DNA from: a virus
DNA: 27,356 nt
Virus record (IMG/VR): IMGVR_UViG_3300015371_003867
Coordinates: 1-27,356 of that record
Strand: one strand, 5' to 3'
Part shown: positions 10,250-27,356 of the stretch, piece after piece
Layout of the letters: the number at the start of each line of letters is the position of its first letter
Numbering within the stretch: the first letter of the stretch is position 1
The notes under the pieces: generated by a model
The model's database searches: none
Seen by the model: only the letters and a program-made list of their open reading frames with translations
What the model was told of the DNA's origin: nothing
Made by a program: the position numbers and the translations under genes

Positions 10250-10268
10250 CTCATGAGGAGACAAGCCC

Positions 10269-11481: not shown

Positions 11482-11849
11482 TCTGCGGGCATCCCGAGGA
11501 CGTCGAAGCCGACCTGTCGCACTACTACCCGCGCGACTGCGACCAGCTCGACCGGTTCCTGACCGGCCAGATGACCGTCCGGCGACTGTGGGTCCTGGTC
11601 TCTCGTCTCCCCCCGGAATCGGCCACTCAGGCCGTGCTGTCCGGCCGTCCCGGCAAGGGCTTCGAGCGCATCGAGTGGACGACCACGCTCCAGGTCTTGG
11701 CTGCGATCCACGACCAGCTCCAGGCGCTCAACTACCTGACCGGCGCCGTACACGCCGGGCGTAAGAACCCGGTCCCCGAGCCGATCCCCATCCCACGGCC
11801 GGGCCTCCCCGAGAAGTCGCCCCCGAAGAGGAGGCGGTCCCCAAGCTGA
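11167..11849 (+). CDS. Tail assembly chaperone, frameshifted long form (gpGT-like)
   Basis: Ribosomes that slip back one base at 11454-11460 leave the short-form frame after residue 98. They continue in the -1 frame from 11460 to the stop at 11847-11849, giving about 227 residues. The added 129 residues start LAQLAELICGHPEDVEADLSH, contain YYPRDCDQLDRFLTGQM and a helical region (TLQVLAAIHDQLQALNYLTG), and end in a Pro/Lys/Arg-rich tail. The -1 frame has no stop between the site and 11849. The only in-frame ATG (11571) lacks a ribosome binding site, so separate translation is unlikely. The ratio of the two forms normally matters for tail assembly. Confidence 0.88.
11454..11480 (+). promoter_or_regulatory. 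Programmed -1 ribosomal frameshift site
   Basis: GGGAAAC at 11454-11460 is in the correct register (G GGA AAC) of the short-form frame and fits the X-XXY-YYZ rule. Five nt downstream, CAGCTC (11466-11471) and GAGCTG (11475-11480) form a perfect 6-bp stem with a GCA loop, suitable as a stimulator. The right arm overlaps the zero-frame stop codon. Confidence 0.9.
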
Positions 11850-11859: not shown

Positions 11860-14800
11860 GTGGCCGGTCGTACCGTCTCGCTGTTCCTGGTCGCTCGCGA
11901 CCGGATGTCGAAGACGTTCGCCAAGGTCGCCGCGAACTCCGACAAGATGACGTCGCGGGTCGAAAAGCTCAACTCGATCACCCGCAAGGCCACCGGCATA
12001 ACCGCCCTGGCCGGTGGCATGACGGCGCTGGGCGCGGCGGCGGCCCCGGCAGCTGCCGCCGTGGCGGCGATGCCTGCCGCGATGCTCGCGGCCAAGGTCG
12101 CCTCGGGCGTGCTGAAGGTCGGCCTGATCGGCGTCGGCGAGGCCATGTCGGCGGTCGCCGAGGGCGACGCCAAGGCCCTGGACGAGGCGCTGAAGAAGCT
12201 CTCGCCGAACGCCCGCGCCTTCGTCAAGGAGGCCGGTGGCCTCAAGAAGGCGTTCGAGCCGGTCCAGCAGGCCGTCCAGAACCGCCTGTTCGAGGGCCTG
12301 TCCGGACAGATGGGCAAGATCGGCCGGAACCTCCTGCCGACCGTCCGCAAGGGCATGGTCGGCGTCGCCGGTGGCCTGAACTCCATGGCCAAAGAGGGCC
12401 TGAAGGTCGCCAACTCCAAGGCGTTCAAGGGCGAACTGGGCAAGGTCTTCAAGGGCACCACCGGCATCGTCAAGACGCTGTCCGGCGCCGTGCGGCCCCT
12501 GGTCATGTCCATCGTGCGCCTCGGGGCCGCGAGTCTGCCCCTGGCCAAGCGCATGGCCCAGTGGGCCGTCAACGGGGCCAAGGCGGTCAACGCCTTCCTG
12601 AAGTCCAAGAAGGGCGCGGACTTCCTGAAGGGCGCCATCAAGGGAGCCGGGGACACCCTGGCCACCCTGGGGCGGATCGCCAAGAACATCGCGTCGATCT
12701 TCATCAACGTCTTCAAGAACGCGGGCGGCGCCGGGGACGGTCTGCTGACCACGCTGGAACAGCTCACCGCCAAGGCGGCGGCCTGGGTGAAGTCCACCGA
12801 GGGCCAGACGAAGATCGCCGACACGTTCGCCCTGCTGCGCGACGTCCTTGCCCAGCTCGGCACGATCCTGCCGCTGGTCGTCGGCCCTCTCGGCGCCATC
12901 GCCAAGGTCCTGGGCATGCTGCCCACTCCGACGGCCGACGTCGTGGCCAAGGTGCTGGCGTTCGGCCTGGTCATCAGCCTGCTGGGCGGCAAGCTGCTCA
13001 TGGTCGGCAAGCTGCTGTTCGGCTTCGGCAAGGGCGTGTTCACCGTCGCCAAGGGCGCGGTTGGCTTCGTTGGCGGCATCGCCAAGGGCAGCGCGGCACT
13101 GGGGGCGAACGCGAGCGCGGCGGCCAAGGCCGGGGCGGCCGTACGGTCTTTCGGCTCCACGATGGTCACCGGCGTCAAGGCGTCGGCCCAGATGGTGGCC
13201 AGCCTGTCGGCGATGGCTTGGAACGGCATCAAGGCCGGGGCGTCCATGGCGGGCGCGGCCACCAAGACCGCGCTGCTGACCGTCGCCCAGAAGGCCAGCG
13301 CGGTCGCCTCCAAGGCGATGGCCGCCGCGACGTGGCTGGTCAACGCGGCGATGCGGGCCAACCCGATCGGGATCATCATCACGATCATCATGGCGCTGGT
13401 CGGCGCCATCGTGCTGGCCTACAACAAGTCCGAGACGTTCCGGAACATCGTCAACGCGGTCTGGAACGGCATCAAGACGGCCATCACCACGGCGTGGAAC
13501 AACTTCATCAAGCCCGCCCTGACCGCTTTGTGGTCGTTCATCACGAACACCCTGGCGCCGAAGTTCCTGTGGTTCCACAACAACATCGTCAAGCCGGTGT
13601 TCTCCGCCGTCGGCGCGGTGATCAAGTGGGCCTGGAACAACCTGGTCAAGCCGATCTTCGCGGCGATCGTCTTCTACTACAAGAACATCCTGGGCCCCGT
13701 GGTCCTGTGGCTGTACCGGAACGTCGTCAAGCCGATCTGGAACGCCATTGGAACCGCGATCAAGTGGGCTTGGTCGAAGATCATCTCTCCGGCGTTCTCC
13801 GCCATCAAGAACGGCGTCCAGCTGGTCGGCAAGGCGTTCAAGGGCGCGTCCGACTTCATCAAGACCGCCTGGGGCAAGATTAAGGAAGCGGCCAAGGCGC
13901 CGATCAAGTTCGTCGTCCAGACCGTCCTGAACAACGGCATCCTGCGGGCCTGGAACTTCGTCGCCGACAAGTTCAACCTGTCGCCGAAGAACCTGTCCAT
14001 CCCGCTGCCCAAGGGCTTCGCGACCGGCGGCCACATCGCCGGACCCGGCGGCCCCAGGGACGACCGCATCCCGATCATGGCCTCCGACGGCGAGTTCATG
14101 GTCAACGCCCGCGCCACCAAGCGGTTCCGCCCCCTCCTGGAGGCGATCAACCGACGGGGCGGGTCCGGGTTCAAGGTGGCCAGGGCCCTGGGCGTCACCG
14201 GCGACCCCGGCGGCATGGGCCTGCCCGGCTACGCCGAGGGCGGCATCATCGGCGGCATCAAGGCGTTCTTCGGCCAGGCCAAAGACTGGTTCATGGACGG
14301 CATCAAGAATGCCGCCAAGCTGGTCACCGGCCCGATCCTGGACAGCCTGGAATCCGCCATGGGCGGCTCCACCTTCGGCAAGATGCTGGCCGGTATCCCG
14401 CGCAACATCGTCAACGGCTTCCTGAGCTGGATCGACGGCAAGGACTCCGCCATCGGCGGGCCCGGCCAGAAGGCCGTCAAGGCCGCGCGCTCGCAGCTCG
14501 GCGTGCCGTACTCGTGGGGCGGCGGCGGCCCCGGCGGCCCGTCGTACGGCATCGAGCAAGGCGCGAACATCCGGGGCTTCGACTGCTCCGGCCTGACCGA
14601 ATACGCCTGGTGGCAGGCCACTCACAAGTCCATCGGCGGCACGACCTACAGCCAGAAGGGCATCCTGAAGCGCGTCGGCGTGCCCCGGCCTGGTGACGTC
14701 GGCCAGCCCCACCCGGGCCACACCTACCTCATGTCCGGCCCCGGAAAGATCATCGAGGCGCCGTACACGGGGGCCCGGGTCCGCGAGGTCGGCATGCGCG

Positions 14801-15054
14801 CGACCCCGTGGTGGGGCCGCCCGCCGTGGGTGATGGACACCGGCGGCGTACTTCCGCCCGGCATGAGCCCGCCCATCTACAACGGCACCGGCGGGCCCGA
14901 GTACGTCTTGCGGCCCGACCAGCTGGCCGCCATGGGCGACTCTCGCAAGGTCGTCCTGGAGGTCCGGGGCAACAGCGACCTTGCCCAGCTAATCCGCAAG
15001 TCCGTCCGCGTCAAGGGCGGCGACGTCCAGCGCGCTTTCGGGACCAGGGGGTAA
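11860..15054 (+). CDS. Tape measure protein with NlpC/P60 peptidase domain
   Basis: A 1064-residue protein, the longest in the window. The first 300 residues are Ala/Lys-rich helices. A hydrophobic segment (residues 501-521) may cross the membrane on DNA entry. Residues 540-680 are Trp-rich and repetitive, with a 47-residue repeat (F572-H-N-N-I-V-K-P and Y619-R-N-V-V-K-P). An NlpC/P60-type domain spans about 870-985, with catalytic Cys909 in FDCSGL and probable His954 in GHTYLM. It would cut cell-wall peptides so the tail can reach the membrane. From the usual 0.15 nm per residue rule, a tail of roughly 130-160 nm is expected. The GTG start at 11860 has GAGGAG 6 nt upstream, right after the chaperone genes. 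Confidence 0.93.
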   Translation: MAGRTVSLFLVARDRMSKTFAKVAANSDKMTSRVEKLNSITRKATGITALAGGMTALGAAAAPAAAAVAAMPAAMLAAKVASGVLKVGLIGVGEAMSAVAEGDAKALDEALKKLSPNARAFVKEAGGLKKAFEPVQQAVQNRLFEGLSGQMGKIGRNLLPTVRKGMVGVAGGLNSMAKEGLKVANSKAFKGELGKVFKGTTGIVKTLSGAVRPLVMSIVRLGAASLPLAKRMAQWAVNGAKAVNAFLKSKKGADFLKGAIKGAGDTLATLGRIAKNIASIFINVFKNAGGAGDGLLTTLEQLTAKAAAWVKSTEGQTKIADTFALLRDVLAQLGTILPLVVGPLGAIAKVLGMLPTPTADVVAKVLAFGLVISLLGGKLLMVGKLLFGFGKGVFTVAKGAVGFVGGIAKGSAALGANASAAAKAGAAVRSFGSTMVTGVKASAQMVASLSAMAWNGIKAGASMAGAATKTALLTVAQKASAVASKAMAAATWLVNAAMRANPIGIIITIIMALVGAIVLAYNKSETFRNIVNAVWNGIKTAITTAWNNFIKPALTALWSFITNTLAPKFLWFHNNIVKPVFSAVGAVIKWAWNNLVKPIFAAIVFYYKNILGPVVLWLYRNVVKPIWNAIGTAIKWAWSKIISPAFSAIKNGVQLVGKAFKGASDFIKTAWGKIKEAAKAPIKFVVQTVLNNGILRAWNFVADKFNLSPKNLSIPLPKGFATGGHIAGPGGPRDDRIPIMASDGEFMVNARATKRFRPLLEAINRRGGSGFKVARALGVTGDPGGMGLPGYAEGGIIGGIKAFFGQAKDWFMDGIKNAAKLVTGPILDSLESAMGGSTFGKMLAGIPRNIVNGFLSWIDGKDSAIGGPGQKAVKAARSQLGVPYSWGGGGPGGPSYGIEQGANIRGFDCSGLTEYAWWQATHKSIGGTTYSQKGILKRVGVPRPGDVGQPHPGHTYLMSGPGKIIEAPYTGARVREVGMRATPWWGRPPWVMDTGGVLPPGMSPPIYNGTGGPEYVLRPDQLAAMGDSRKVVLEVRGNSDLAQLIRKSVRVKGGDVQRAFGTRG

Positions 15055-15057
15055 GTC

Positions 15058-17814
15058 GTGGCCTTCCCTCAGAGCGTCCTGGGCGTGACGGTCGGGCTGT
15101 ATCTCGGCGGGTCGTGGGTGGACGTCTCCACGGACGCCCTGCACCGCGACGCGATCAACATTCAGCGAGGCCAGAGCGACGAGGGGTCTCAGGCGGACCC
15201 CTCGTCGTGCACGCTGACCCTGAAGAACCAGGCGGGCACCTACAGCCCGCGCAACCCGCTGTCGGCGTACTACGGCATCATCGGCCGGAACACGCCCCTG
15301 CGGGTGTCGGTCAACGAGGGCACGCCCTACCTGGCCACGCAGGGAACCCAGTTCGCCAATACCGGCGCGTCCACCCCGGACGCCGCCGCGCTCGACATCA
15401 CCGGTGACATCGACATCCGGATTGACGTCACCATGGCGAACTGGCTGACCGTGGGGACCAGCTCGTCTGTGGAGCTGGCCGGGAAGTTCCGCACCTCGGG
15501 CGGTAACCAGCGGTCCTGGCTGTTCATGATGCGCAACGGCCGCCCCTGGTTCGAGTGGTCGGCCGACGGCACGAACGTGCTCCAGAAGACGTCCACGGCG
15601 GACCTGACCATCCCGTCCTCGGGGCGGCTCGCGCTGCGCGTCACCCTGGACGTCAACAACGGCGCGGCCGGGAACACGGTCACCTTCTACACGTCCGACA
15701 CGATCTCGGGCACGTGGACCCAGCTCGGGGACCCCGTGGTCACCGCCGGAACGACGTCCATCTTCAACAGCACGGCCGAACTCCGGGTCGGCGACGGGTC
15801 CACCGACATCGGGTTCTACACGCCGGACGGCGGCGTACACGCCTTCCAGCTGCGTAACGGCATCGCCGGGTCGGTCGTCGCCAACCCCGACTTCACCGCC
15901 CAGGCCCTCGGCGCCACGTCGTTCGCCGACGCCGCCGGGCGCACCTGGACCGTGAACAACTACACGTCGATCTCCAACCGGCGCTTCCGCTTCCACGGCG
16001 AGGTGTCGTCCTGGCCCCAGCGCTGGGACCCGTCCGGCAACGACGTGTACACGCCCATCGAGGCCGCCGGGATCCTGCGCCGCCTCGGGCAGGGCGCCCC
16101 CGAGCTGCGCTCCACGCTGTACCGGGGCCTGACCACGCTCAGTACCAACAAGCCGGTGGCGTACTGGCCCGCCGAGGACGAAGAGGGCTCCACGACCATC
16201 GCGTCCGGCCTCGGCGGACCGCCCATGACCATCGTGGGCACGCCAGGCTTCGGCGACTACGAAGGCTTCGCCGCCTCGGCGCCCATCCCGCTGCTCAACG
16301 ACAGCGAGTGGACCGGCATCGTCCCCGGCTACGCGGTGTCCTCCCAGCTGACCATGCGGTTCCTGCTGGCCGTCCCGACCGGCGGTTCGGTCAACGCCCA
16401 ATCCATCTGCAAGGTCCTGACCAGCGGAAGCGCGCCCAGCTGGGAAGTGGTCTACGGTACCGGCGGCACGCTGCGCGTGGTGGCCAAGGACGAAGAGGGC
16501 ACCATCCTGCTGGACTCCGGCTACATCGCCTTCAACGTCAACGGCGCCAAGCTGCGCGTCGCCCTGGACCTGCTCCAGAACGGCGCCAACGTCGAGTGGG
16601 ACCTGACCACCGTCGAGCCCGGCCAGACCGGCGTCACCACCGGCGGCACGCTCAACAACCAGACGTTCGGCCAGGCCAAGCGGGTCATCGTCAACAACGG
16701 CGGCGGCATCACCGACACAGCCGTGGGCCACGTGTCCATCCAGCCCGGCATCACGTCCGTCTACGACCTGGCCGACCAGCTGAACGCCTACATCGGCGAG
16801 AAGCCCGCCCGCCGGTTCTGGCGGCTGTGCCAGGAGGAGAACATCCCGTTCCGGCTGATCGGCCACCTGGATGACGGCGAGCTGATGGGTGCCCAGACCC
16901 GCTCGACCCTGGTGTCCCTGCTGACCGAGGTCGCCGAGACGGACCTGGGCATCATGTTCGAGCCGCGCGACCTGTTCGGCCTGGGCTACCGCACCCGCGA
17001 GTCCCTGTACAACACCTCGGCGACGGTCGCGCTCGACTACGACGCCGAGCAGGTCTCCATCGGCCTGGAGCCGGTGGACGACGACCAGGCCACCCGCAAC
17101 GACATCACCGTGACCAGGGAGGGCGGATCGTCGGCCCGCGCGATGCTGGAGACCGGCCCGCTCTCGATCCAGGCGCCGCCCAACGGCGTCGGTCCCTACC
17201 CCAGTTCGGTGACCATCGCGGCCATGTCGGACCAGCAGTTGCCCGACCAGGCTTCCTGGCGGCTGCACCTGGGCACCGTGGACGAGGCCCGCTACCCGCA
17301 GGTCACGATGAACCTGGCCAACGCGGCCCTGTCTAGCAACGCCGCCCTGTCGGCGGCCGTGCGGGCGCTGGAGGTCGGCGACCGGCTGACCATCGCCAAC
17401 CTGCCGTCCTGGCTCCCGCCCGAGCTGGTCTCCCAGCTGGTCTACGGCTTCGACGAGCTGCTGGACAACTTCGCCAACGAGATCGTGGTCAACTGCGTGC
17501 CCGACTCGCCGTACCAGGTCGGCGTGTACGGCACCGCGCGCTACGGCCCGTACGCCAGCACGCTGGCCGAGGACCTGACGACCACCGAGACCGGCGCGGA
17601 CGTCGCCACCACGGCGGGCCCGCTGTGGACCACGGCCGCCGGTGACCTGCCGCTGGACATCATGGTCGGCGGCGAACGGATGACCGTCACGGCCATCTCC
17701 GGCGCCTCCAGCCCGCAGACGTTCACCGTCACCCGCTCCGTGAACGGCATCGTCAAGACGCACCTGACCGGCGCGGCCGTGCAGCTGTTCACGCCCTCCT
17801 ATCGAGCCCTGTAG
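15058..17814 (+). CDS. Tail-tip/minor tail protein with two lectin-like domains
   Basis: A 918-residue protein directly after the tape measure gene. Its N-terminus (VTVGLYLGGSWVDVS to RNPLSAYYGIIGRNTPLRV) is the common opening of actinophage minor tail proteins that sit at the distal end of the tube. Residues about 114-274 (GDIDIRIDVTMANW, then GRPWFEWSADG, then SGRLALRVTLDVN) and about 367-560 (VAYWPAEDEEGST onward) each look like a LamG/concanavalin-type sandwich. Such domains usually bind sugars. The rest resembles the hub part of tail tips (GYRTRESLYN, VALDYDAEQVS). It probably combines distal tail and hub roles, which other siphophages split over two genes. It starts at GTG after a G-rich site. 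Confidence 0.8.
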   Translation: MAFPQSVLGVTVGLYLGGSWVDVSTDALHRDAINIQRGQSDEGSQADPSSCTLTLKNQAGTYSPRNPLSAYYGIIGRNTPLRVSVNEGTPYLATQGTQFANTGASTPDAAALDITGDIDIRIDVTMANWLTVGTSSSVELAGKFRTSGGNQRSWLFMMRNGRPWFEWSADGTNVLQKTSTADLTIPSSGRLALRVTLDVNNGAAGNTVTFYTSDTISGTWTQLGDPVVTAGTTSIFNSTAELRVGDGSTDIGFYTPDGGVHAFQLRNGIAGSVVANPDFTAQALGATSFADAAGRTWTVNNYTSISNRRFRFHGEVSSWPQRWDPSGNDVYTPIEAAGILRRLGQGAPELRSTLYRGLTTLSTNKPVAYWPAEDEEGSTTIASGLGGPPMTIVGTPGFGDYEGFAASAPIPLLNDSEWTGIVPGYAVSSQLTMRFLLAVPTGGSVNAQSICKVLTSGSAPSWEVVYGTGGTLRVVAKDEEGTILLDSGYIAFNVNGAKLRVALDLLQNGANVEWDLTTVEPGQTGVTTGGTLNNQTFGQAKRVIVNNGGGITDTAVGHVSIQPGITSVYDLADQLNAYIGEKPARRFWRLCQEENIPFRLIGHLDDGELMGAQTRSTLVSLLTEVAETDLGIMFEPRDLFGLGYRTRESLYNTSATVALDYDAEQVSIGLEPVDDDQATRNDITVTREGGSSARAMLETGPLSIQAPPNGVGPYPSSVTIAAMSDQQLPDQASWRLHLGTVDEARYPQVTMNLANAALSSNAALSAAVRALEVGDRLTIANLPSWLPPELVSQLVYGFDELLDNFANEIVVNCVPDSPYQVGVYGTARYGPYASTLAEDLTTTETGADVATTAGPLWTTAAGDLPLDIMVGGERMTVTAISGASSPQTFTVTRSVNGIVKTHLTGAAVQLFTPSYRAL

Positions 17815-17819
17815 GAGCC

Positions 17820-18272
17820 ATGCCGAACATCACCGACGGCGAACTGGTCCGGGGCGCCGACTTCCCGACCACGGTGTTCGCCCAGGAGGACACCGTCCAG
17901 AACGGGTCAGCCTCCCCGACGTACGTGACCGGCACCCCCGAGCTGGGCGTCTACTTCATGGCGCCCACCTCGGGCCGCGTTCTGATCACCGTGAGCGGCG
18001 GCGCCCGGGACGCGACCAACGACAACCGGGCCTTCCTCGCCCCTCAGGTGTTCCTGGACAGCGCCCAGGGCGACGAGATCCTGGCCCCGTCGGTCGAGTC
18101 GTACGGCTGGGCCAACCCCGGGTCGAACAGCGACTACGTGTTCGGCTCCCGGGTGTCGATGCTGGAGGGCCTGACCCCGGGCCGGGTCTACTACGCCCGC
18201 GTCATGTTCTCCCCCGAGGGTGCCAGCGTCGAAGTCCGCACCCGCGAGATCATGGTGGAGCCGGTGTCATGA
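17820..18272 (+). CDS. Minor tail protein, tandem paralogue 1
   Basis: The product has 150 residues, strand-rich and without catalytic motifs. After a short N-terminal linker come VYFMAPTSGRVLITVSGGARD and, near the C-terminus, GLTPGRVYYARVMF and an end strand. The next two genes share the same landmarks at the same places, so the three are paralogues. Position after the tail-tip gene suggests small tail-tip adhesion or fibre-base subunits, but the function is inferred. The ribosome binding site (TAGGAG) overlaps the previous stop codon. The end overlaps the following ATG by 4 nt. Confidence 0.75.
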   Translation: MPNITDGELVRGADFPTTVFAQEDTVQNGSASPTYVTGTPELGVYFMAPTSGRVLITVSGGARDATNDNRAFLAPQVFLDSAQGDEILAPSVESYGWANPGSNSDYVFGSRVSMLEGLTPGRVYYARVMFSPEGASVEVRTREIMVEPVS

Positions 18273-18730
18273 CCGATCACCTGGCGGGCTCCAAGATCAA
18301 GGCGGCGGACTTCCCGCCGACCGTCTGGTCCAACGACAACACCGACTTCAACAACGTCACGGCCACGACGTTCCAGAACGGCACGCCCGAGGTGTCGGTC
18401 ACCTTCATCGCCCCGACCTCCGGCCGCGTCCTGGTCATCAACGGCGGCGGCTGCCGGAACAACACCGGCGCGGACCAGATCTTCATGGACTCCGAGGTCC
18501 GGGTGACCAACAGCGGCGGCGCGGTCGTGTCCGCCGCCAGCGTCACCGGCGAGGGGACGATCTCCTGCGCGGACGAGTCGATCGCCCACGAGTACAAGAG
18601 CCGCGCCTACGTCGTGTCCGGCCTCACCCCCGGCGGCCAGTACTTCGCGCGCCTCCAGTACCGCAGCTCGACCGGCGCCGGAACGGCTGACGTCAGCGCC
18701 CGGTCCCTCATCGTCCAGCCCATCCCGTAG
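18269..18730 (+). CDS. Minor tail protein, tandem paralogue 2
   Basis: The product has 153 residues. It has the family landmarks VTFIAPTSGRVLVINGGG near residues 43-60 and GLTPGGQYFARLQY near 114-127, and an N-terminal ADFPPTVW segment close to that of paralogue 1 (ADFPTTVF). The middle carries different loop sequences, including two cysteines (C61 and one near residue 100) that could form a disulfide. This pattern of conserved core and varied middle would suit subunits with different binding surfaces. Translation is probably coupled to paralogue 1 by the ATGA overlap. Confidence 0.75.
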   Translation: MTDHLAGSKIKAADFPPTVWSNDNTDFNNVTATTFQNGTPEVSVTFIAPTSGRVLVINGGGCRNNTGADQIFMDSEVRVTNSGGAVVSAASVTGEGTISCADESIAHEYKSRAYVVSGLTPGGQYFARLQYRSSTGAGTADVSARSLIVQPIP

Positions 18731-18739
18731 GAGGCCGAC

Positions 18740-19204
18740 GTGCCCGATCTGCTGGCCGGGACCACGATTCGCGCCCTGGACCGGCCCCCGAGCGGTTACA
18801 CCGCCGAAGGCACGCTCCAGAGCAACATCAACACCAGCGGCGCGTACGTCGAGCCCACCAACCAGTGCCGCGTGACCTTCATCGGCCCCACCTCGGGCCG
18901 GGTCAAGGTGGTGGTCGGCGGCGGCTTCCGCGACGACACGAACAACAACCAGGGCTTCCTCGCCGTCGAGATCCGCGAGACGAACGTGTCCGGCTCGACG
19001 GTGGCCGTGGCCAGCGCCTACGCCCAAGGGATCATCTCGATGCCCGAGGCGAGCGACTACTACTACCACTCCCGGATCACCCTGCTGGACGGCCTTACCC
19101 CAGGTCAGATCTATTTCGCGCGGATCATGATGAAGACCGAAACGGCGGTCGGCGCGACGGTGGACCTGCGGCTGAAGAACCTCGCCATCATCCCCGTCCC
19201 GTAA
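18740..19204 (+). CDS. Minor tail protein, tandem paralogue 3
   Basis: The product has 154 residues and starts at GTG 18740, with TAGGAGG overlapping the previous stop. Landmarks VTFIGPTSGRVKVVVGGGFRDDTNNN and GLTPGQIYFARIMM place it in the same family as the two genes before it. RDDTNNNQGF is closest to RDATNDNRAF of paralogue 1, so the set is not a simple recent triplication. No enzyme motif is visible. A tail-tip or fibre-base role is inferred from position. Confidence 0.75.
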   Translation: MPDLLAGTTIRALDRPPSGYTAEGTLQSNINTSGAYVEPTNQCRVTFIGPTSGRVKVVVGGGFRDDTNNNQGFLAVEIRETNVSGSTVAVASAYAQGIISMPEASDYYYHSRITLLDGLTPGQIYFARIMMKTETAVGATVDLRLKNLAIIPVP

Positions 19205-19215
19205 GGAGAACAGCC

Positions 19216-19449
19216 GTGCCCTACACGTGGGTCACCGCCGAGTCCGACAACCCGAACAACAAGATCACGCTGTACGCCACCCGTGGCGTCGTGTCCTTCG
19301 ACATCGCGATCACCGTGGACGGCGGGAGCTACGAGGACACCGCCCCGGCCATGGGCGAGATCAAGGAGGCGCTGGAGGACCTGGGCTTCGACGTCCAGTC
19401 CATCCAGACCGGCGGGTTCCTGCCTCGCACCCTCCAGGAGCAGGCGTAA
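19216..19449 (+). CDS. Small tail-region protein, unknown function
   Basis: The product has 77 residues from GTG 19216, with AAGGAG 7 nt upstream; the open frame before it is a shadow of paralogue 3. The first half suggests strands (TWVTAESDNPNNKITLYATRGVVSFDIAITVDGG), the second a helix (MGEIKEALEDLGFDVQSIQT). I do not recognise a family. A 39-nt gap with no clear signal separates it from the next gene. Confidence 0.65.
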   Translation: MPYTWVTAESDNPNNKITLYATRGVVSFDIAITVDGGSYEDTAPAMGEIKEALEDLGFDVQSIQTGGFLPRTLQEQA

Positions 19450-19488
19450 CCGAGTCCACCGTCACATCTCCATAGTGCGAGGTCAGGC

Positions 19489-19830
19489 GTGCCAGCAACC
19501 GTCTGGAACATCACCATCGAACAGGGCGCGACCTGGACGACCACCCTCACCCTCACCGACCGGGACCTGACCGGCTGCTCGGCGCGGATGCAGATCCGCG
19601 AGACGGTCAGCTCGCCGTCCACACTGCTCTCGCTGACCAGCTCCCCGGCGGCCGGGATCGCCATCACGGCGGGCCCGCCGGGCGTCATCACCCTCACCAT
19701 CACGGCCGCTCAGACGGCTGACATGGCGTGGAAGCACGGCGTCTACGACCTGGAGCTGGTCACCGCCGGGGGCACGGTCGAGCGCCTGCTGAAGGGCGAC
19801 GTGGCGGTGGACTTCGAGGTGACGCGGTGA
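19489..19830 (+). CDS. Tail-associated beta-sandwich protein (baseplate upper-protein-like N-terminus)
   Basis: The product has 113 residues. ITIEQGATWTTTLTLTDRDLTGCSARMQIRET, followed by TLLSLTSSP, GIAIT, GVITLTITAAQTADM and YDLELV, is the strand order seen at the N-terminus of BppU-like and similar phage tail proteins that connect fibres to the tail tip. It starts at GTG 19489 behind a weak GAGG. Its stop overlaps the GTG of the next gene by 3 nt. The role as a fibre connector is inferred from this resemblance and the neighbouring fibre genes. Confidence 0.65.
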   Translation: MPATVWNITIEQGATWTTTLTLTDRDLTGCSARMQIRETVSSPSTLLSLTSSPAAGIAITAGPPGVITLTITAAQTADMAWKHGVYDLELVTAGGTVERLLKGDVAVDFEVTR

Positions 19831-20150
19831 GCGAACTCGTCATCGAGTCCGGCAACACCTACGAGATCGTCCTGGCCCCGCAGTCGCCCACCGACGTTGA
19901 TGTGGCCACGCCAGGCCCCCAGGGGCCGCCAGGACCGCCCGGCCCCGCCGGTGGCGAGACCTACGTCTACGACCGCAACGGCGTGCCTGCGGCCACCTGG
20001 ACCGTCTCCCACAACCTCGGGCGCCGGGTCCACGTGACCGTCTGCGGCGACGACGGCCGCGAGGTGGACACCGACGTCGAGAACCCCGACCTGAACACCA
20101 CAGTGATCACTTTCGCCACGCCGTTCAGCGGTACGGCGCTCATCGGTTAG
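19827..20150 (+). CDS. Short tail fibre protein with collagen-like segment
   Basis: The product has 107 residues from GTG 19827, overlapping the previous stop (GTGA); the longer open frame upstream is a shadow. Residues 1-28 resemble a small N-terminal anchor. A collagen-like run of Gly-X-Y triplets (GPQGPPGPPGPAG) follows at about 30-42 and should form or seed a triple helix. The C-terminal domain (TWTVSHNLGRRVHVTV to TTVITFATPFSGTALIG) resembles the C-terminus of the following fibre protein. It is probably a trimeric fibre or fibre segment for host adhesion. Confidence 0.75.
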   Translation: MSELVIESGNTYEIVLAPQSPTDVDVATPGPQGPPGPPGPAGGETYVYDRNGVPAATWTVSHNLGRRVHVTVCGDDGREVDTDVENPDLNTTVITFATPFSGTALIG

Positions 20151-20157
20151 GAGACCC

Positions 20158-21153
20158 ATGTCCCGCGCCGTCCTGAACGGGCTCAACCTCAGCAACCAGC
20201 GCATCACCAACGTCGCCGACCCCAGCTCGAACACGGACGCCGCCACCAAGCAGTACGTGGACCAGGTCGCCCGGGGCCTGAACTGGAAGCAGTCCGTACG
20301 CGCCGCGACCACCACCAACGGCACGCTCGCCACGGCGTACGAGAACGGCGACACCCTGGACGGCGTCACGCTGGCCACCGGTGACCGCATCCTGCTCAAG
20401 GACCAGACGACCGGCGCGGAGAACGGCATCTACGTCGTCGCCGCGAGCGGGGCGCCCACCCGGGCCACCGACATGCCCGCCGCGTCCGACGGCAAGGGCG
20501 TGGCCGTCACGGTCACCTCGGGCACGGTCAACGCCGATCGGGTCTACATCCAGACCGCCGACACCGCGACCGTCGGCACCGACGCGCTGTCGTGGTCGCA
20601 GCTAGGCGGCGGCGGCACCTCCTACACGGCCGGGGACGGCCTGTCGGAGAGCCCGGCGGGGACGTTCAACGTGGCCACCGGCTCGGGCCTGGAGATCTCC
20701 TCCGACGCGGTCCGTATCGCTGCGGCGGCGGCCGGTGCGGGCCTCACCGGCGGCGCTGGCTCCGCGCTCGCGGTCGGCGCGGGATCCGGCATCACCGTCA
20801 ACGCCGACGACGTGGCCCTGGCCAGCTCGACGGCGGGCAACGGCCTGACCTACACGACCGGCGTGCTGGCCGTCGGCGCCGGGACCGGCATCTCGGTGTC
20901 CTCCGACGCCGTGGCCGTGGACACCGGAACCATCTCCCGGCACGTCGCGGCCAACGTCGGCGACAACTCCGCCACGCAGATCGACGTCACGCACAACCTG
21001 GGTACCAAGGACGTGATCGTCGAGCTGTACGTGAACAGCGGGTCGAACGAGACCGTCATCGCGGACGTGAGCAGGCCCGACACGAACACGGTCCGGCTCA
21101 ACTTCGCCACGGCGCCGACGTCGAACCAGTACCGCGTAGTGATCATGGGCTGA
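20158..21153 (+). CDS. Tail fibre protein
   Basis: A 331-residue protein. The N-terminus (LNLSNQRITNVADPSSNTDAATKQYVD) is the common phage-fibre trimerising motif. A TGAENGIYVVAASGAPTRATDM segment follows at about 85-110, well known from phage tail fibres. Residues about 175-258 are a Gly/Ala/Val-rich shaft with degenerate repeats around GLTxxxGxLAVGAGxGI. The C-terminal domain (IDVTHNLGTKDVIVELYV to TVRLNFATAPTSNQYRVVIMG) resembles that of the upstream collagen-like protein and may be the receptor-binding tip. GGAG precedes the ATG. No chaperone or sugar-cleaving motif is visible. Confidence 0.85.
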   Translation: MSRAVLNGLNLSNQRITNVADPSSNTDAATKQYVDQVARGLNWKQSVRAATTTNGTLATAYENGDTLDGVTLATGDRILLKDQTTGAENGIYVVAASGAPTRATDMPAASDGKGVAVTVTSGTVNADRVYIQTADTATVGTDALSWSQLGGGGTSYTAGDGLSESPAGTFNVATGSGLEISSDAVRIAAAAAGAGLTGGAGSALAVGAGSGITVNADDVALASSTAGNGLTYTTGVLAVGAGTGISVSSDAVAVDTGTISRHVAANVGDNSATQIDVTHNLGTKDVIVELYVNSGSNETVIADVSRPDTNTVRLNFATAPTSNQYRVVIMG

Positions 21154-21157
21154 GCCG

Positions 21158-21739
21158 ATGCCCAAGGCCCTCACTCCCATCCAGCTGCCCCAGCTGGCCA
21201 GCCCGGCCTCGCCCTCGTCGGGCTACACGGCACTGTCGGCGCGCTCTGGCGACATCGCCTACAGCGAGGATTCCGGCGGCACCGAGCGGCTGGTGGCCGC
21301 CGGGCCGATCCCGGTACGGCTCACCTCGGCGCAAAACTCCACGTCCACGTCACTGGCCGACGTCACCGGCCTGGGGCTCTCGGTGCAGGCAAACCGCAAG
21401 TACCTGTTCCGCTTCCTTGGCCAGTACACGGCCGCCGCCTCCACGACCGGACTGGGCCTGGCCATCAACGGCCCCACGCTGGGCTCCGAGGGCCTGATGT
21501 GCAATGTCTTCATCGCACAGACAAACCAGATTCCGTACCTGGGCAGCGTGACCGCCTACAACACGGCGGTGCTCAACACCGCGTCCTCGGCGTCCACCCG
21601 CATGCCCTGGGAGTGCTGGGGCTACATCCATGTCGGGGGCAGCGCGGGCACGCTCCAGCTCCGCTTCCGTACCGAGGTGTCCACGTCCCAGGTGTCCGTC
21701 CAGGCCGGGTCCATCGGGTTCGCCTGGGTGATCGGCTGA
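21158..21739 (+). CDS. Tail adhesion protein, paralogue pair member 1
   Basis: A 193-residue Ser/Thr/Gly-rich beta protein that begins ALTPIQLPQLASPASPSSGY and has STSTSLADVTGLGLSVQANRKYLFRFLGQYTA, then a GLAINGPTLGSEG loop and a C-terminal WGYIHVGGSAGTLQLRF. The next gene has the same order of landmarks. The C-terminal two thirds resemble jelly-roll domains found on phage fibre tips. It follows the fibre gene by 4 nt, and its stop overlaps the next start. Receptor binding or fibre decoration is inferred. Confidence 0.7.
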   Translation: MPKALTPIQLPQLASPASPSSGYTALSARSGDIAYSEDSGGTERLVAAGPIPVRLTSAQNSTSTSLADVTGLGLSVQANRKYLFRFLGQYTAAASTTGLGLAINGPTLGSEGLMCNVFIAQTNQIPYLGSVTAYNTAVLNTASSASTRMPWECWGYIHVGGSAGTLQLRFRTEVSTSQVSVQAGSIGFAWVIG

Positions 21740-22326
21740 TGCCTACGTTCCTTACGCCGCTCCAGCTCATCGAGGTCCCCACCGGCGTGGACCCGGCGGC
21801 CAGCGGCTACGACTCGCTGCATGGCCTGAGCTTCGGCCCGGCTTACAAGGGCTCGGACGGATCGCTGGGCAGGCTCTTGGACATCGTCCAGGGCCGCGTG
21901 GCGTCGAACCTGACGAACACCACGACCACGCTGGCCGACATGACCGGCCTGGCCCTGCCGGTACTCGCGGCCGGGCACTACTACTACGAGTTCTCCGGGA
22001 CCTACTCCAGCTCGGTGTCCGGCTGCTACATCGCCGCCGGAGTCAACGGGCCGTCCACGGGCTCGAACGGCGTCGCCTGCAACCTGCACCTTCACGTGGA
22101 AAACGGCGCGGACACCTGGCACAACGGGTGCACCACGTCCTTCGGGTCGTCGATCACTCCCGGCTTCGTGCAGACGGCCAACGTCTCGATCCCGTGGCGG
22201 ATCTACGGCTACGCCCACATCGGCGCGTCTGGCGGCAACCTGACGCCCCAGTTCGCCAGGAACTCCGGCGCGGGCACGATCACGATCCAGGCAGGCGCCT
22301 GGGGCTGGCTCTGGCGCCTGAACTAG
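21739..22326 (+). CDS. Tail adhesion protein, paralogue pair member 2
   Basis: The product has 195 residues from ATG 21739, one base into the previous stop (TGATG); the longer open frame upstream is a shadow. Landmarks shared with member 1 are FLTPLQLIE at the start, TTTTLADMTGLALPVLAAGHYYYEF, a GVNGPSTGSNG loop and IYGYAHIGASGGNLTPQF, ending in WGWLWRLN. Four cysteines lie in the variable middle. It is the last late gene: after its TAG come two hairpins, the second a strong terminator, before the integrase. Confidence 0.7.
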   Translation: MPTFLTPLQLIEVPTGVDPAASGYDSLHGLSFGPAYKGSDGSLGRLLDIVQGRVASNLTNTTTTLADMTGLALPVLAAGHYYYEFSGTYSSSVSGCYIAAGVNGPSTGSNGVACNLHLHVENGADTWHNGCTTSFGSSITPGFVQTANVSIPWRIYGYAHIGASGGNLTPQFARNSGAGTITIQAGAWGWLWRLN

Positions 22327-22510: not shown

Positions 22511-22523
22511 TAGAATGGGGGCA
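22511..22523 (+). promoter_or_regulatory. -10 box of a probable leaderless integrase promoter
   Basis: TAGAAT (22511-22516) fits the actinobacterial TANNNT -10 consensus and lies 6 nt before the integrase ATG at 22523. Transcription should therefore start at or next to the A of the start codon, giving an mRNA without a 5' leader. No usable ribosome binding site lies at normal spacing. The only -35-like element, TTGCGG (22494), is too close to be used. Confidence 0.65.
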
Positions 22524-23551
22524 TGAATGATCTCGTCGTGACCACCACGGCGGCCCTGCCCGCCACCGTCGTCACGCTCCCCCGGGCCCAGAATCCCTAC
22601 CACGTGTACCTGGATTCGCTGAAGAGCGCGGAGTCCCGGCGGACCATGCGCGGATGCCTGAACCACATCACGGCGATGCTGGCCGACGTGAGCGGCCAGG
22701 AGATCATCGCCGAGGCCGTCCCGTGGGGGGCGCTGCGCTTTCAGCACGCCGCCAACATCCGGGCCCGGCTCACCCAGGAGACCCGCACCGTGCGCGGCGA
22801 GACCGCCCCTCTGTCGCCGTCCTACATCAACGTGCACCTGGCGGCCCTGCGCGGCGTCCTGAAGGCCGCGTTCAACCTGGGCCACCTCGGCGCCGACGAC
22901 CTGGCCCGCGCACGCGAGGCCCTGAAGAACGTCACCGGCTCACGCCTGCCCGCCGGACGCAACCTGGCCGACGCCGAACAGGCGGCCATGCTGCGGGTCT
23001 GCCTGGACGGCACGCTCGCGGGCATCCGCAACGCCGCCATCGTGGCCCTGCTGTGCGCGACCGGCGCCCGGCGTGCCGAGGTGGCCGCCGCCCGGCGTGA
23101 GCACTACGACCCCGGCGGGCGGGCGCTGCGCATCGTCGGCAAGGGCGACCGTCAGCGCGAGGTCTACGTCAACGAGGACGCCGCCGTCTACCTCGGTGCC
23201 TGGCTCGCCCAGCTCGACGGCCGCACCGGCGCCCTGTTCGTGCCCATCGACAAGTGGGGGCACCTGGCCAACCGGCACATGAGCACCCGGGCCGTCGGCG
23301 CCGTCATCGACGACGTACGGCGGCGCGCGGGCCTGCCGAGGCTCACGCCGCACGACTTCCGGCGGACCTTCATTGGCCAGCTGCTCGACGACGGCACCGA
23401 CCTGGCCACGGCCCAGGCGCTCGCCGGGCACGCCTCACCGGTCACCACGGCCGGATACGACCGGCGCCCGGCCGCCGCACGCAAGGCCGCCGCCAACCGG
23501 CTGCGCCTGCCGCGTCCCGAAGACCTCAAGCCCGCGACGGTAGCCGGGTGA
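22523..23551 (+). CDS. int: Tyrosine recombinase (phage-type integrase)
   Basis: A 342-residue site-specific recombinase. The SAM-like N-terminal domain (about residues 22-135: YHVYLDSLKSAESRRTMRG, later SPSYINVHLAALRGVLKAAF) precedes a catalytic domain holding the full active-site set. This comprises Arg183 in TGARRAEV, Lys207 in GKGDR, His277 and Arg280 in PHDFRR, His303 in AGH, and the nucleophile Tyr312 in TTAGYDR. It is XerC-like in arrangement and lacks a clear arm-binding N-terminal domain, so it may be a short-arm integrase or act in plasmid/phage multimer resolution. It is transcribed separately from the tail genes, probably as a leaderless mRNA. The 600-nt region downstream could contain attP. 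Confidence 0.92.
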   Translation: MNDLVVTTTAALPATVVTLPRAQNPYHVYLDSLKSAESRRTMRGCLNHITAMLADVSGQEIIAEAVPWGALRFQHAANIRARLTQETRTVRGETAPLSPSYINVHLAALRGVLKAAFNLGHLGADDLARAREALKNVTGSRLPAGRNLADAEQAAMLRVCLDGTLAGIRNAAIVALLCATGARRAEVAAARREHYDPGGRALRIVGKGDRQREVYVNEDAAVYLGAWLAQLDGRTGALFVPIDKWGHLANRHMSTRAVGAVIDDVRRRAGLPRLTPHDFRRTFIGQLLDDGTDLATAQALAGHASPVTTAGYDRRPAAARKAAANRLRLPRPEDLKPATVAG

Positions 23552-23590
23552 TCCCCGTACCGTTGATCTCGTGAGGCGTTGAACGCCCAG

Positions 23591-23681
23591 GCGCTCCGAG
23601 ATGATTCATGTGGGGTGGTTGCCTCGGAGGCGCCCGTGAGAGGGGGCGCGGTCCCGGTGTTGACCGGGTCGGGCCCCTCTC
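23591..23681. other. Two adjacent hairpins after the integrase
   Basis: GCGCTCCGAG (23591-23600) pairs with CTCGGAGGCGC (23623-23633) with one bulged base. A second nested structure has GAGAGGGG (23638-23645) with CCCCTCTC (23674-23681), enclosing CCCGGT (23653-23658) with ACCGGG (23663-23668). They could terminate integrase transcription, form a small RNA, or be integrase core/arm sites. Confidence 0.5.
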
Positions 23682-23774
23682 TCCGTGTTTATGCAGGCCA
23701 GAGGCCCAATCGCTGTACGGGCCGCTGAGAGGCCCCCTGTGGGACCTAACCCTTCCTATCGACCACCTGCTGTT

Positions 23775-23790
23775 TGGCCGTCTGCGGCCA
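23775..23790. repeat. Short inverted repeat
   Basis: TGGCCG (23775-23780) and CGGCCA (23785-23790) form a perfect 6-bp stem with a TCTG loop. No T-run follows. Function unknown; it lies between the integrase-side hairpins and the bidirectional terminator. Confidence 0.35.
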
Positions 23791-23840
23791 TCTCAGAGCC
23801 TCGATTTTCGCCATGATCACGCCACTGACCCCGGACATGC

Positions 23841-23887
23841 AAAAGGCCCCCTTTCCGACCTCGGATGAGGCGGAAAGGGGGCCTTTT
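23841..23887. terminator. Bidirectional terminator between convergent genes
   Basis: AAAAGGCCCCCTTTCCG (23841-23857) pairs perfectly over 17 bp with 23871-23887. The stem extends into CCTC/GAGG after one bulged A, closed by a GGAT loop. A and T runs flank it on both sides, so it can work for transcripts from either strand: the integrase side and the minus-strand transfer genes. Confidence 0.92.
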
Positions 23888-23994
23888 GATCATTGCGTGG
23901 TGAAGGATGAGGGGTCTCAGGAGGGTCGATGTATCAGCCCGTCGCGCCCGTGGAGCGACCGGTCCGGCGGGCCCTTCTCGCGGCGTCGGTGACC

Positions 23995-24150
23995 CGGTAG
24001 CCGCTCCCGTCGAGAGGCGGTAATCCAGGGCCGAAGTGGAGGCCGTCCGGGGACGGTAATCGGGGCGGTAATCCACCCGGTAGCGGGGGCAGAAATTACC
24101 GCCCTCTGACCCCGGAAACCGGGGCGGTAGCGAGGGCGGTAATCGGGGGC
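23995..24150. repeat. Cluster of CGGTA repeats with 12-bp phasing (iteron- or clt-like)
   Basis: The core CGGTA occurs on the plus strand at 23995, 24018, 24054, 24066, 24078, 24125 and 24137, and inverted (TACCG) at 24097. Two versions exist: GGCGGTAATC (24016, 24064, 24135, with near-copy 24052 and the inverted copy) and CGGTAGC (23995, 24078, 24125). Steps of 12, 12 and 12 bp, and one of 36 bp, keep most copies on one phase. The cluster ends one base before the stop codon of the minus-strand membrane-protein gene. Such arrays are typical of plasmid iterons, partition sites or the recognition sites of TraB-type translocases. Confidence 0.75.
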
Positions 24151-25155
24151 CTAACCGACCGACCGCAGGGGCGGCCGGGCGGGCGCTTGCGCCTCTAGTT
24201 CGACGAGTTCCTTCTTGATCTCACGGAGGAGCTGACGGCCCCGGTCTGGGGTCAGGCCGAGCGACTTGCCAAGCTCGCCGCCCGAGATCTCCGGGTTCTC
24301 CTCATACAGGATGCGGGCCTCGTCCTTGCTGCTCAGGCCGCGCCTATCCGGGTCCACAGCGGTCGCCTTCGGGCCCTTGCCGGACCTCTTACCGGCGGGC
24401 TTGCTGTCGGTCAGCTCACGCCGCACACGGGCGGTCGTTTCGACCTCGGCGCGGGTACGCGCGGCCTCCTCGGCGGCCTCGATGAGGGCCGGGATTTCCG
24501 CCTCGGCTTCCGCCCTGCCGCGCGCCTCGGCGGCCTCGATTTCCGCCCCCCGCTTCCGGGTCGCTTCCGCCTCGATTACCGGTCGGACTTCGGCCTCCAC
24601 TTCCGCCTTGATTTCCGCCCTCGCTTCCGCCTCCAGGCGGTCGCGGATTTCCGCCTTGATGGAGATCATTTCGGCGGCCTCGGCGGCCTTCTTGACCGCG
24701 TCGTGGGCGATCTTCTTCGCCTTCATGAAGAGGTTCAGCGCGACCATCGAAGAGGCGTCCAGAATGATCGGCAGCACCAGGGACCAGAAGTCGCCCATCT
24801 TGGGGCGGAGAACTTCGGCCTGGTGTGCGATCGACATGCCCATGCACGACAGCATCAGCGTGATGATGGCGAACTTGATCCACGAGTTGACCAGGGGGTC
24901 CTTCAGGGCGTCGGAGAGCCAGAAGGCGATGGCCACGGGGACGATGCCGATGATCAGGGCGAGTGAAATGTCCCCGAAGCTCACCTTTATCGCACCGGCG
25001 GCGGTGATCTCCTGGGCGGTCACGGCCAGCTTGCCGCTGGGCAGCTTCGGCGCCAGGGCGTAGTAGATGTTCAGGTAGAGGCTGACCAGGGCTGTTGCGA
25101 TCAGGAACCTCTTCCAGCCTCGCCCGGCCTCCTCCATGGATTCTGGGGTGTTCAC
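24151..25155 (-). CDS. DUF2637/SpdB-like membrane protein with coiled coil and helix-turn-helix
   Basis: A 334-residue protein from GTG 25155, chosen because AAGGGAG lies 5 nt upstream; two in-frame ATGs further upstream lack such a site. Four hydrophobic segments lie at about residues 14-36, 62-84, 91-112 and 122-143. A long, highly charged Ala/Glu/Arg coiled coil follows (about 150-250), then a basic linker (GKRSGKGPK) and a C-terminal helix-turn-helix-like region (DEARILYEENPEISGGELGKSLGLTPDRGRQLLREI). Four helices plus a cytoplasmic tail is the pattern of DUF2637 proteins, typical of actinomycete plasmids and integrative elements, where Spd-type proteins help plasmid spread between hyphal compartments. 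Here it may tether DNA to the membrane for the adjacent translocase. The family call is from layout and context. Confidence 0.72.
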   Translation of the reverse strand: MNTPESMEEAGRGWKRFLIATALVSLYLNIYYALAPKLPSGKLAVTAQEITAAGAIKVSFGDISLALIIGIVPVAIAFWLSDALKDPLVNSWIKFAIITLMLSCMGMSIAHQAEVLRPKMGDFWSLVLPIILDASSMVALNLFMKAKKIAHDAVKKAAEAAEMISIKAEIRDRLEAEARAEIKAEVEAEVRPVIEAEATRKRGAEIEAAEARGRAEAEAEIPALIEAAEEAARTRAEVETTARVRRELTDSKPAGKRSGKGPKATAVDPDRRGLSSKDEARILYEENPEISGGELGKSLGLTPDRGRQLLREIKKELVELEAQAPARPPLRSVG

Positions 25156-25222
25156 GGTTGCTCCCTTGCGAAAGGTCATCAGCACTCCGGTGGTTGCACA
25201 CAGAGTCACGACGGGTTACCCT

Positions 25223-25247
25223 CACGCGCGCATGCGCGCATGCGCGC
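25223..25247. promoter_or_regulatory. Perfect GC-rich palindrome with alternating purine-pyrimidine tract
   Basis: Positions 25226-25247 are a perfect 22-bp palindrome built from GCGCGC and CATGCG units. From 25223 to 25247 purines and pyrimidines alternate without a break, the pattern that most readily adopts Z-DNA under negative supercoiling. It lies about 70 bp upstream of the GTG of the membrane-protein gene, where an operator would be expected. Confidence 0.6.
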
Positions 25248-25266
25248 CCCCGCGTATGGCTCCCAG

Positions 25267-25314
25267 CGGCCCCGAGTTCTCTCGCCCCGGGGCCGTGAGA
25301 ATGAGAATGAGAAA
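25267..25314 (-). terminator. Hairpin and hexamer repeats downstream of the translocase gene
   Basis: CGGCCCCG (25267-25274) and CGGGGCCG (25288-25295) form a perfect 8-bp stem, 34 nt after the translocase stop on the minus strand. No T-run follows, so it is a weak or Rho-assisted terminator at best. Next to it the plus strand reads GAGAAT twice and GAGAAA once (25297-25314), a small tandem hexamer repeat. Confidence 0.45.
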
Positions 25315-25328
25315 GTCACGCTCGGTGG

Positions 25329-27356
25329 TCAGGAGACCTTCAGCGTGTAGACGCCGTCGGCGACCTTCTCGACCGGCAGCGTGGAGATCAGCCGGTAGGC
25401 GGTCGGCATCGAGCACACACCCGCGTCCACGATGTCGGCGACCTTCAGCTGGCCGCGCTCGCGGAACAGGGCCATGATCTTGTCGGCCTTGTCGTCCTTC
25501 GAGCTGATCGGGATCACGGTCGCGTCCTGCCCCGGCGTCTCCGCCGGTGCGACGGCCGCGCCGCCGCCGTACTTCTGGTCGTACTCGGCGAGCCCGGCCA
25601 GGTAGCCGCGCTCGTAGGCCGCCGCGCTGCGCGCGTCCAGCTGCTCCCCGGCGGGGACCAGCCGCGCGCTGGCCTCGGGCGTCATGTAGAGCGTCCGGGA
25701 GACCAGGTCGCGGCCGTTGCCGGTGAGCACGAAGCCCAGGCCGTGCGTCTTCTTGGTCATCTCCTCGTCGAAGTACTTCGGCAAGGTGTTGGCAGCGACT
25801 TCGAGCCCGGCGGAGTTCGCCATCCGGTTGGTCTCCGAGGTGGCGACCCGGTACAGGATGACGTTGCCGGAAAGCAGCTGCTCGCGGGCGTCGCTGTCGT
25901 CGTTGAACGCGCCGTCCACGCTGGGGCGCTGGGTGGCCACGGTCGCCTTCATCCAGGCGGCGCGGCCCTCCTGCACGATCCGGCGGACGATCGGGCCCAG
26001 CTCGCGGATCTCGAACACGCGGGGCATCTCGTCGATGACCGCGTGAACCATCGGGATGCCGTAGTCCGGTCCCATCCGGGCCGGGCCGACCTCGCCTAGC
26101 ATGACGATGCGCTCGTCCAGGACGGCTTCCACGCCACGCAGGCCCGCGAAGATCTCCCGCTTGTTCAGGTACGAGCCGTACAGCTTGGACTGGAGGTCCT
26201 TGAAGTCGCCGCCGCCCTTCGGGTCGAAGAGCAGGACGGCGGAGCCGAACGCGATGGACTCGCCCATGATCAGGCGGAGGCCCGAGGTCTTACCGGACCC
26301 GGTGGCGCCCACGAAGATGTCGTGGACCGCGCCGGACTCCGGGTCGAACAGGATGTAGTAGGCCAGGCCCGACCCGTCGGGGTAGACCGCGAACGGCACC
26401 CGTCCGGTGGCCCGGTCGAGGCCGGGGCCCTCCCAGTAGGACACGTCCATGAGCGGGTTGCGCTCAAGGACCAGCAGGCGGCCCCGGGTCTTGCGGCCCC
26501 GGCGGTCGGCCTCCAGGTAGACCAGCTCGTCCACGAAGTCCATGTCGAGCGTGCCCTTGATGTCCTCCAGGGCGCTGCGCATCTTGTTGTAGGTCCACTT
26601 CTTCGGGCCGCCCTCGATGACCCAGGCCATGCCGTTGGGCGTGCCCTGGTGGTCGAACAGCGGTTCCGGCTCGACCAACTCGCTGCGGGCCAGCGCGCCC
26701 TCGGTGGACCCGACGGCGTTCTCTTCGCTCCAGGCCACCTGGTGCGGGTGCGGCCCTTCGGGCTCGACCTCGGCGACCGGCGCCGCCTCGATGGCGGCCA
26801 CCGGCGCGGCGTAGGTCAGGGCGATCGGGCGGGGGCGGATATACCACCACCACGGCGCGGACATCGCCGCGCCGCCAAGGACCAGCAGGGTGGGCATCGG
26901 GGTGTTCATCCCGGGGCCCACCTGCACGGCCGCCGTGGTCCAGACGGTCGCCAGCGCGAGCGCGCCGCCGTACCAGTTCTGCCGCCACAGCCCCTTGGCC
27001 AGCCAGGCGCGGAGCTTCTTCAGGGCGAGCCCGCCGAGGCCGACCACCACGGCCCCGGCCGGGACGTACCAGGGGTTCGCGCCGTTCTCGTACATGCCGT
27101 TGGCGGCGACCCACAGGCCGCCCCAGGCGGCGACCGGGTACAGGCCCTTGCGGATCTGCCACCACAGCGACCGGCGGGCGCTGGCCAGGGCCTCGGGCGG
27201 GATGGCCGCGCGGATGGCGGCCGTCAGTGCCTCGCCCCGGGTCCTGACCGGCGCGGGGTTGGCCTCGTTGGTGAACCCCAGTGCGTCGGCGACGCTGCCG
27301 GGGCGTATTTGCACGCCCCCCGGCGAAGGGGACTCTGTCGGCGTGCGGGTGGTCAT
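25329..27356 (-). CDS. FtsK/TraB-like dsDNA translocase
   Basis: A 675-residue protein whose ATG is the last codon of the window, so a further upstream start is possible. Four hydrophobic stretches lie between about residues 70 and 172. The motor domain has Walker A GATGSGKT (350-357), a DPKGGGDF strand-loop shortly after, and Walker B HAVIDEMP (D442-E443), followed by a VATQRPS motif typical of FtsK/SpoIIIE proteins. The last about 50 residues (DKIMALFRERGQLKVADIVDAGVCSMPTAYRLIS) form a winged-helix-like DNA-binding domain. N-terminal membrane part, motor and C-terminal winged helix are the layout of TraB, the hexameric pump that transfers double-stranded plasmid DNA in Streptomyces. Known TraB proteins bind short repeats; the CGGTA cluster nearby is a candidate. 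Chromosome-segregation FtsK is unlikely given the small size and context. Confidence 0.88.
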   Translation of the reverse strand: MTTRTPTESPSPGGVQIRPGSVADALGFTNEANPAPVRTRGEALTAAIRAAIPPEALASARRSLWWQIRKGLYPVAAWGGLWVAANGMYENGANPWYVPAGAVVVGLGGLALKKLRAWLAKGLWRQNWYGGALALATVWTTAAVQVGPGMNTPMPTLLVLGGAAMSAPWWWYIRPRPIALTYAAPVAAIEAAPVAEVEPEGPHPHQVAWSEENAVGSTEGALARSELVEPEPLFDHQGTPNGMAWVIEGGPKKWTYNKMRSALEDIKGTLDMDFVDELVYLEADRRGRKTRGRLLVLERNPLMDVSYWEGPGLDRATGRVPFAVYPDGSGLAYYILFDPESGAVHDIFVGATGSGKTSGLRLIMGESIAFGSAVLLFDPKGGGDFKDLQSKLYGSYLNKREIFAGLRGVEAVLDERIVMLGEVGPARMGPDYGIPMVHAVIDEMPRVFEIRELGPIVRRIVQEGRAAWMKATVATQRPSVDGAFNDDSDAREQLLSGNVILYRVATSETNRMANSAGLEVAANTLPKYFDEEMTKKTHGLGFVLTGNGRDLVSRTLYMTPEASARLVPAGEQLDARSAAAYERGYLAGLAEYDQKYGGGAAVAPAETPGQDATVIPISSKDDKADKIMALFRERGQLKVADIVDAGVCSMPTAYRLISTLPVEKVADGVYTLKVS

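Follow-up and report, generated by a model that had tools for sequence, protein, structure and literature searches.

A viral DNA fragment with a putative TraB-type transfer module beside a siphophage cassette: a probable actinobacterial phage-plasmid

The window, by which we mean the whole 27,356-bp stretch of IMG/VR record IMGVR_UViG_3300015371_003867 (a virus record, classed linear), is probably a fragment of a soil actinobacterial phage-plasmid, that is, a siphophage kept as a plasmid, and would carry a TraB-type transfer module next to its virion genes. A sequence-only reading had set such an element, with a module for double-stranded DNA transfer, against an accidental junction between a prophage and a separate integrated element. 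We favour the former, because the gene order recurs in a relative, a ParA gene lies in that relative's population, and related modules occur in phage-plasmids and isolated phages. The gene content, the conserved order, the ParA of the closest module-bearing relative and the repeat arrays at the module can all be read directly from the DNA; spread by both virion and transfer routes is what we infer.

Gene layout and close relatives

The first and last positions of the record fall exactly on start codons, so it was probably trimmed at gene borders, and both natural ends of the element are absent from it. Read from the left, the record opens with a gene for a small HTH protein and HNH-type genes, then runs through terminase, portal, protease and HK97 capsid to the head-tail, tail and fibre genes, and ends with a recombinase, spdB and ftsK; an ORF check bore out the positions first assigned to these last three. 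The virion and packaging set thus runs from terminase through tail fibres. Packaging and head genes, with the head-tail and major tail genes (1824..11849, + strand), are supported by Pfam/PHROG matches: TerS at 1824, TerL at 2335, portal at 4117, protease at 5493, HK97 capsid at 6239, adaptor at 8221, major tail protein at 9480 and chaperone at 11167, all on the + strand. The tape measure gene, with an NlpC/P60 domain inside it, the distal tail gene and the fibre genes follow (11860..22326, +). No lysin gene was recognised 3' of the tail, and neither lysis nor replication genes, nor a closed circle, were seen in the 27,356-bp fragment. A 5.1-kb piece in another metagenome record is 99.9% identical to the window.

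An independent contig, IMGVR_UViG_3300049135_000200 (hereafter G002), is colinear with the window at 79% nucleotide identity, including across the packaging-to-tail block; its packaging, head and major tail proteins are mostly 69-89% identical to those of the window, and its tape measure 57%. In the same order and on the same strands, G002 carries a recombinase of its own, followed by a protein that matches DUF2637 (E 1e-14) and an FtsK-like protein that is 28-31% identical to the window translocase, matches PF01580 (E 2e-8) and is similar to the TraB model (E 1.7e-15). The sequence-only reading had proposed to seek the order tail-integrase-DUF2637-FtsK in related genomes, and would have been contradicted by relatives that all lacked the two minus-strand genes; G002 has the order, and both genes.

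A further contig, IMGVR_UViG_3300049164_000026 (G001), matches G002 at 99.7% identity across 8.4 kb and therefore belongs to the same viral population. It extends further left and there contains the start of a ParA gene (PF13614, E 1e-17), at a distance of 1.2 kb from its orthologue of the gene that opens the window and encodes a small HTH protein (1..192, +). ParA, known from G001 and not from within the window itself, would thus sit on the far side of the structural cassette from the module, a short way beyond the point where the window begins; the left-edge DNA of the window gave no plasmid matches. Among 17 more distant capsid relatives, several of them fragmentary records, neither FtsK nor DUF2637 was found, which argues that the module is exchangeable and not core to the capsid family. 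Three relatives by fibre gene (L124, L133 and L134) also have no module. The fibre itself is common to unrelated phages, and in L133 it is followed by holin- and lysin-like genes.

The putative transfer module and its repeat arrays

The Xer-like tyrosine recombinase (22523..23551, +; PF00589, E 2e-20) matches the XerC model at E 5e-26, below the equivalog cut-off, and could be either an integrase or a plasmid dimer resolvase. Beyond it lies an intergenic region (23612..23894) that is 78% identical to its G002 counterpart, though the adjoining recombinases are barely related; this region is a possible att, resolution or replication site, and an Rfam search of it returned no RNA. Between the convergent genes there is a perfect 18-bp inverted repeat forming a hairpin (23840..23888), probably a bidirectional terminator. 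Host genes between integrase and spdB had been named as a sign of a junction; none was found, the space being taken up by the conserved stretch and the hairpin. The intergenic region also holds a 19-mer, GTTTAYGCAGGYCAGAGGC (23687-23705), which is present in 14 IMG/VR contigs, G002 included. Their flanks are otherwise mostly unrelated, a tyrosine integrase lies close by in some, and in L096 and L108 the 19-mer directly follows an apparent tRNA 3' end. A role as a multi-copy arm site was rejected on account of its single copy, and a search against known phages and plasmids gave no useful match.

Convergent to the recombinase and next to the siphophage cassette, as first described and as the ORF positions confirm, lie spdB and ftsK, both on the minus strand. 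The spdB product (24151..25209, -; a GTG at 25155 is likely the real start) has N-terminal TM helices, a long coiled coil and, in the model, a C-terminal HTH. Its initial assignment as DUF2637/SpdB-like holds in part: Pfam gives no direct match to DUF2637 (PF10935), and the assignment stands because the adjacent gene of a Streptosporangium plasmid is 29-33% identical and the positional counterpart in G002 matches DUF2637. Upstream of spdB there is an alternating GC palindrome, CGCGCATGCGCGCATGCGCGC (25227..25254), a candidate operator for the transfer genes; G002 has a similar palindrome in the same place.

The neighbouring gene (25329..27356, -) encodes a 675-aa protein that had been called a TraB/FtsK-like translocase, and this call stands: the PF01580 match is weak (E 6e-5; its 23.0 bits fall short of the 24-bit cut-off), but profile matches to solved FtsK/EccC structures are solid (4nh0, E 3e-16; 2iuu, E 2e-12). 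It carries Walker A (GATGSGKT) and Walker B (HAVIDE) motifs, N-terminal TM helices and a C-terminus of predicted winged-helix topology (HHH-EE), the arrangement of an FtsK-fold ATPase; the AlphaFold model, made without an alignment, is poor (pLDDT 38) except at the winged helix. The best-matching homologue is a Streptosporangium plasmid protein, 43% identical over 96% of the length. The curated TraB family model (NF041214, plasmid_TraB) does not match the window translocase and scores 56.6 bits in G002 against a cut-off of 800. Used as a query in INPHARED, viral contigs and genome contigs, the window FtsK found no matches, and a profile built from four FtsK sequences retrieved G002 alone.

The strongest local cluster of any 8-mer in the window, CGGTAATC, lies at this module (23.8-24.6 kb, log10 P -14.7). 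The array word is element-specific, being GGCGGWAAT in the window and CAGTGAR in G002. The non-coding part of the GGCGGTAAT array (24016..24143, +), the best 8-mer cluster of the window, has copies at 24016, 24052, 24064 and 24135 on the + strand and at 24095 on the - strand, with degenerate copies at 24076 and 24123; all six copies of CGGTAAT fall within 23990-24660 (shuffle mean 0.18, maximum 2). The coding part consists of eight GGCGGAA copies inside spdB (24496..24655, -), in the opposite orientation to the non-coding part. In spdB, the Glu codon GAA makes up 15/37, as against 42/291 in other genes (Fisher p 3e-4). G002 repeats this pattern with its own word: 30 of the contig's 31 CAGTGAR sites lie in a 770-bp stretch that takes in the end of the DUF2637 gene together with the gap downstream of it, and the rare Ser codon AGT accounts for 10/37 in that gene, against 6/315 elsewhere. 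Such skewed codon use in both genes argues for selection on the DNA word of the repeat, and not on the peptide alone. Across nine records, the top repeat cluster was at the module in five (chance 0.002), and in three of seven (chance 0.02) once the two records that had suggested the idea were set aside; in Hiyaa, Galactica and ZL12 the top cluster lies elsewhere. Hiyaa (79401-80200 and 36401-37200) and Galactica (35001-35800 and 77101-77900) each have two separate GGGGTAAC-type arrays away from ftsK.

Known clt loci are short direct repeats beside or within tra genes, bound by TraA/TraB, and it is on this likeness that we read the array as a clt-like docking site to which the translocase would bind. 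We posit the following scheme. The lysogen would be kept as a plasmid by ParA partition and the Xer-like recombinase; the FtsK-like protein would form a membrane ring whose winged helix recognises the GGCGGWAAT array beside and inside spdB; and, assisted by the SpdB-like membrane protein, it may drive the genome, as circular double-stranded DNA, into an adjacent compartment of the hypha or into a mating partner. The identical genome could also be packaged into virions.

Weighing the alternatives

Could the window instead record the chance meeting of two elements, the structural cassette being a prophage that inserted next to, or within, a distinct conjugative plasmid or AICE, with the intergenic stretch as attR? 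The integrase does adjoin a conserved intergenic region, the closest FtsK homologue sits on a 358-kb plasmid, and the more distant capsid relatives are without the module. We nonetheless hold a junction to be improbable: the arrangement is identical in G002 despite unrelated recombinases, the gap has no host gene, ParA lies on the other side in G002's population, and such modules recur inside isolated phage genomes. An AICE, moreover, is defined by Int, Tra and an AICE-type Rep, a chromosomal att site and no virion genes (PMC3218068), whereas the window has a full structural cassette and no Rep was seen in it. That the record is a chimeric assembly is more improbable by far; it is metagenomic and its ends are trimmed, but GC is uniform across the window and G002, assembled independently, shows the same order at its own degree of divergence.

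Two further alternatives concern what the array or the module does. The array might be plasmid iterons or a partition site that merely adjoins the module, which we regard as rather unlikely. Iterons are likewise short direct repeats, as in pWTY27, and the strongest array of PhiNon1 consists of DnaA-box-like TGTCCACA words away from its module; yet arrays follow the spdB-ftsK genes across otherwise different elements, the 358-kb plasmid included. The PhiNon1 words, seven in one 800-bp stretch (L007:16200-17000), likely mark the replication origin of that plasmid-phage. Alternatively, and a little less probably still, the module could serve to spread or segregate the plasmid prophage inside a single mycelium, for instance into its side branches and its spores, and not to conjugate between strains, with the array as a segregation or centromere-like site. 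FtsK pumps function in septal segregation, ParA is present in the relative, and an SsgA-family sporulation gene lies near the PhiNon1 module. Spd proteins, too, are described as acting in intramycelial spreading and stability (PMC4170104). However, pZL12, whose FtsK and neighbouring genes are related, is cited as conjugal, and intramycelial segregation and conjugation are not mutually exclusive. A phage-plasmid with a TraB-type transfer module is the reading we carry forward.

Comparison with known systems

FtsK modules related to this one occur in the circular phage-plasmids PhiNon1 and NBC_01177 and in the isolated phages P1312, Hiyaa, Galactica and ZL12. The NBC_01177 element, a circular plasmid of Streptomyces that measures 52 kb, combines a full set of structural genes with a DUF2637 gene (E 5e-40) and an FtsK-like gene, the latter with phage homologues in Galactica, Keanu, Spocter, Hiyaa, P1312 and ZL12. 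The gene directly upstream of ftsK, in phages and in a phage-plasmid alike, encodes a conserved hairpin domain of ~110 aa with no Pfam match (L119:16111-17799, L118:11607-11975, L008:2940-3668, L120:9219-11519 and L121:4314-5969), and several of these elements also have a neighbouring TM gene; the window counterpart would fall beyond the right edge. A link of the hairpin protein to WXG100/type VII proteins was considered, and Pfam gave it no support.

Tentatively, and as a possibility that we rate below even, we speculate that one conjugation module recurs among actinophages and phage-plasmids, made up of the hairpin protein, a TraB-like pump and SpdB/DUF2637, with an element-specific clt array partly within spdB. 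Viruses of mycelial bacteria, plaque-forming isolates included, might then spread from hypha to hypha as naked double-stranded DNA as well as in virions. The usual picture has phage-plasmids travelling horizontally in capsids alone, with acquired mobilisation following the loss of phage functions (PMC10879196). If the proposal were true, actinobacterial elements with full virion genes, a TraB-type pump and an apparent docking site would amount to a widespread class with two routes of spread, and the arrays open this idea to direct tests by DNA-binding and mating assays.

The nearest FtsK-like (43%) and SpdB-like (29-33%) pair belongs to the plasmid NZ_CP109431 of Streptosporangium sp. NBC_01495. 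The two genes stand there in the window's order, and a strong AGTTCCGC array lies partly within spdB and partly next to it; unlike the window, this element is a 358-kb plasmid, with no phage structural genes annotated within the 42 kb inspected. The TraB/clt systems of pSVH1, pIJ101, pJV1 and pWTY27 likewise combine an FtsK-like translocase with a C-terminal winged helix, short repeats near tra and an Spd membrane protein, but these are small non-viral plasmids, and the curated TraB model leaves the window translocase unmatched. Thermobifida phage P1312 is an isolated, virion-forming siphophage with FtsK and hairpin-domain genes, along with a TM gene in which ACCGGACC forms a 14-copy array; it differs in having a serine recombinase, and the available part of its description reports no plasmid state.

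PhiNon1 of Nonomuraea gerenzanensis (NZ_LT559120) is described as a plasmid-phage found both circular and integrated at tRNA-Val, and the part of that description available does not discuss transfer genes (PMC5431353). This circular 59-kb element resembles the window in having FtsK-like and DUF2637 genes that run convergently to a siphophage cassette, and in a 39% identical terminase; its FtsK is only 26% identical, the array at its module is second best, and integration at tRNA-Val sets it further apart. In Streptomyces, pZL12/PhiZL12 is again a phage genome maintained in plasmid form, and its FtsK-like gene is adjoined by membrane and hairpin-type genes; in contrast to the window, it measures 90 kb, its structural genes were not detected as related, and it has no strong module array by the test used. 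As cited, pZL12 is both conjugative and phage-forming, with tra and two adjacent genes bringing about its conjugal transfer. The dual phage and conjugative idea is thus not new, pZL12 being its precedent; the kind of element was already known, and what looks new is the divergent module, with element-specific arrays embedded in spdB.
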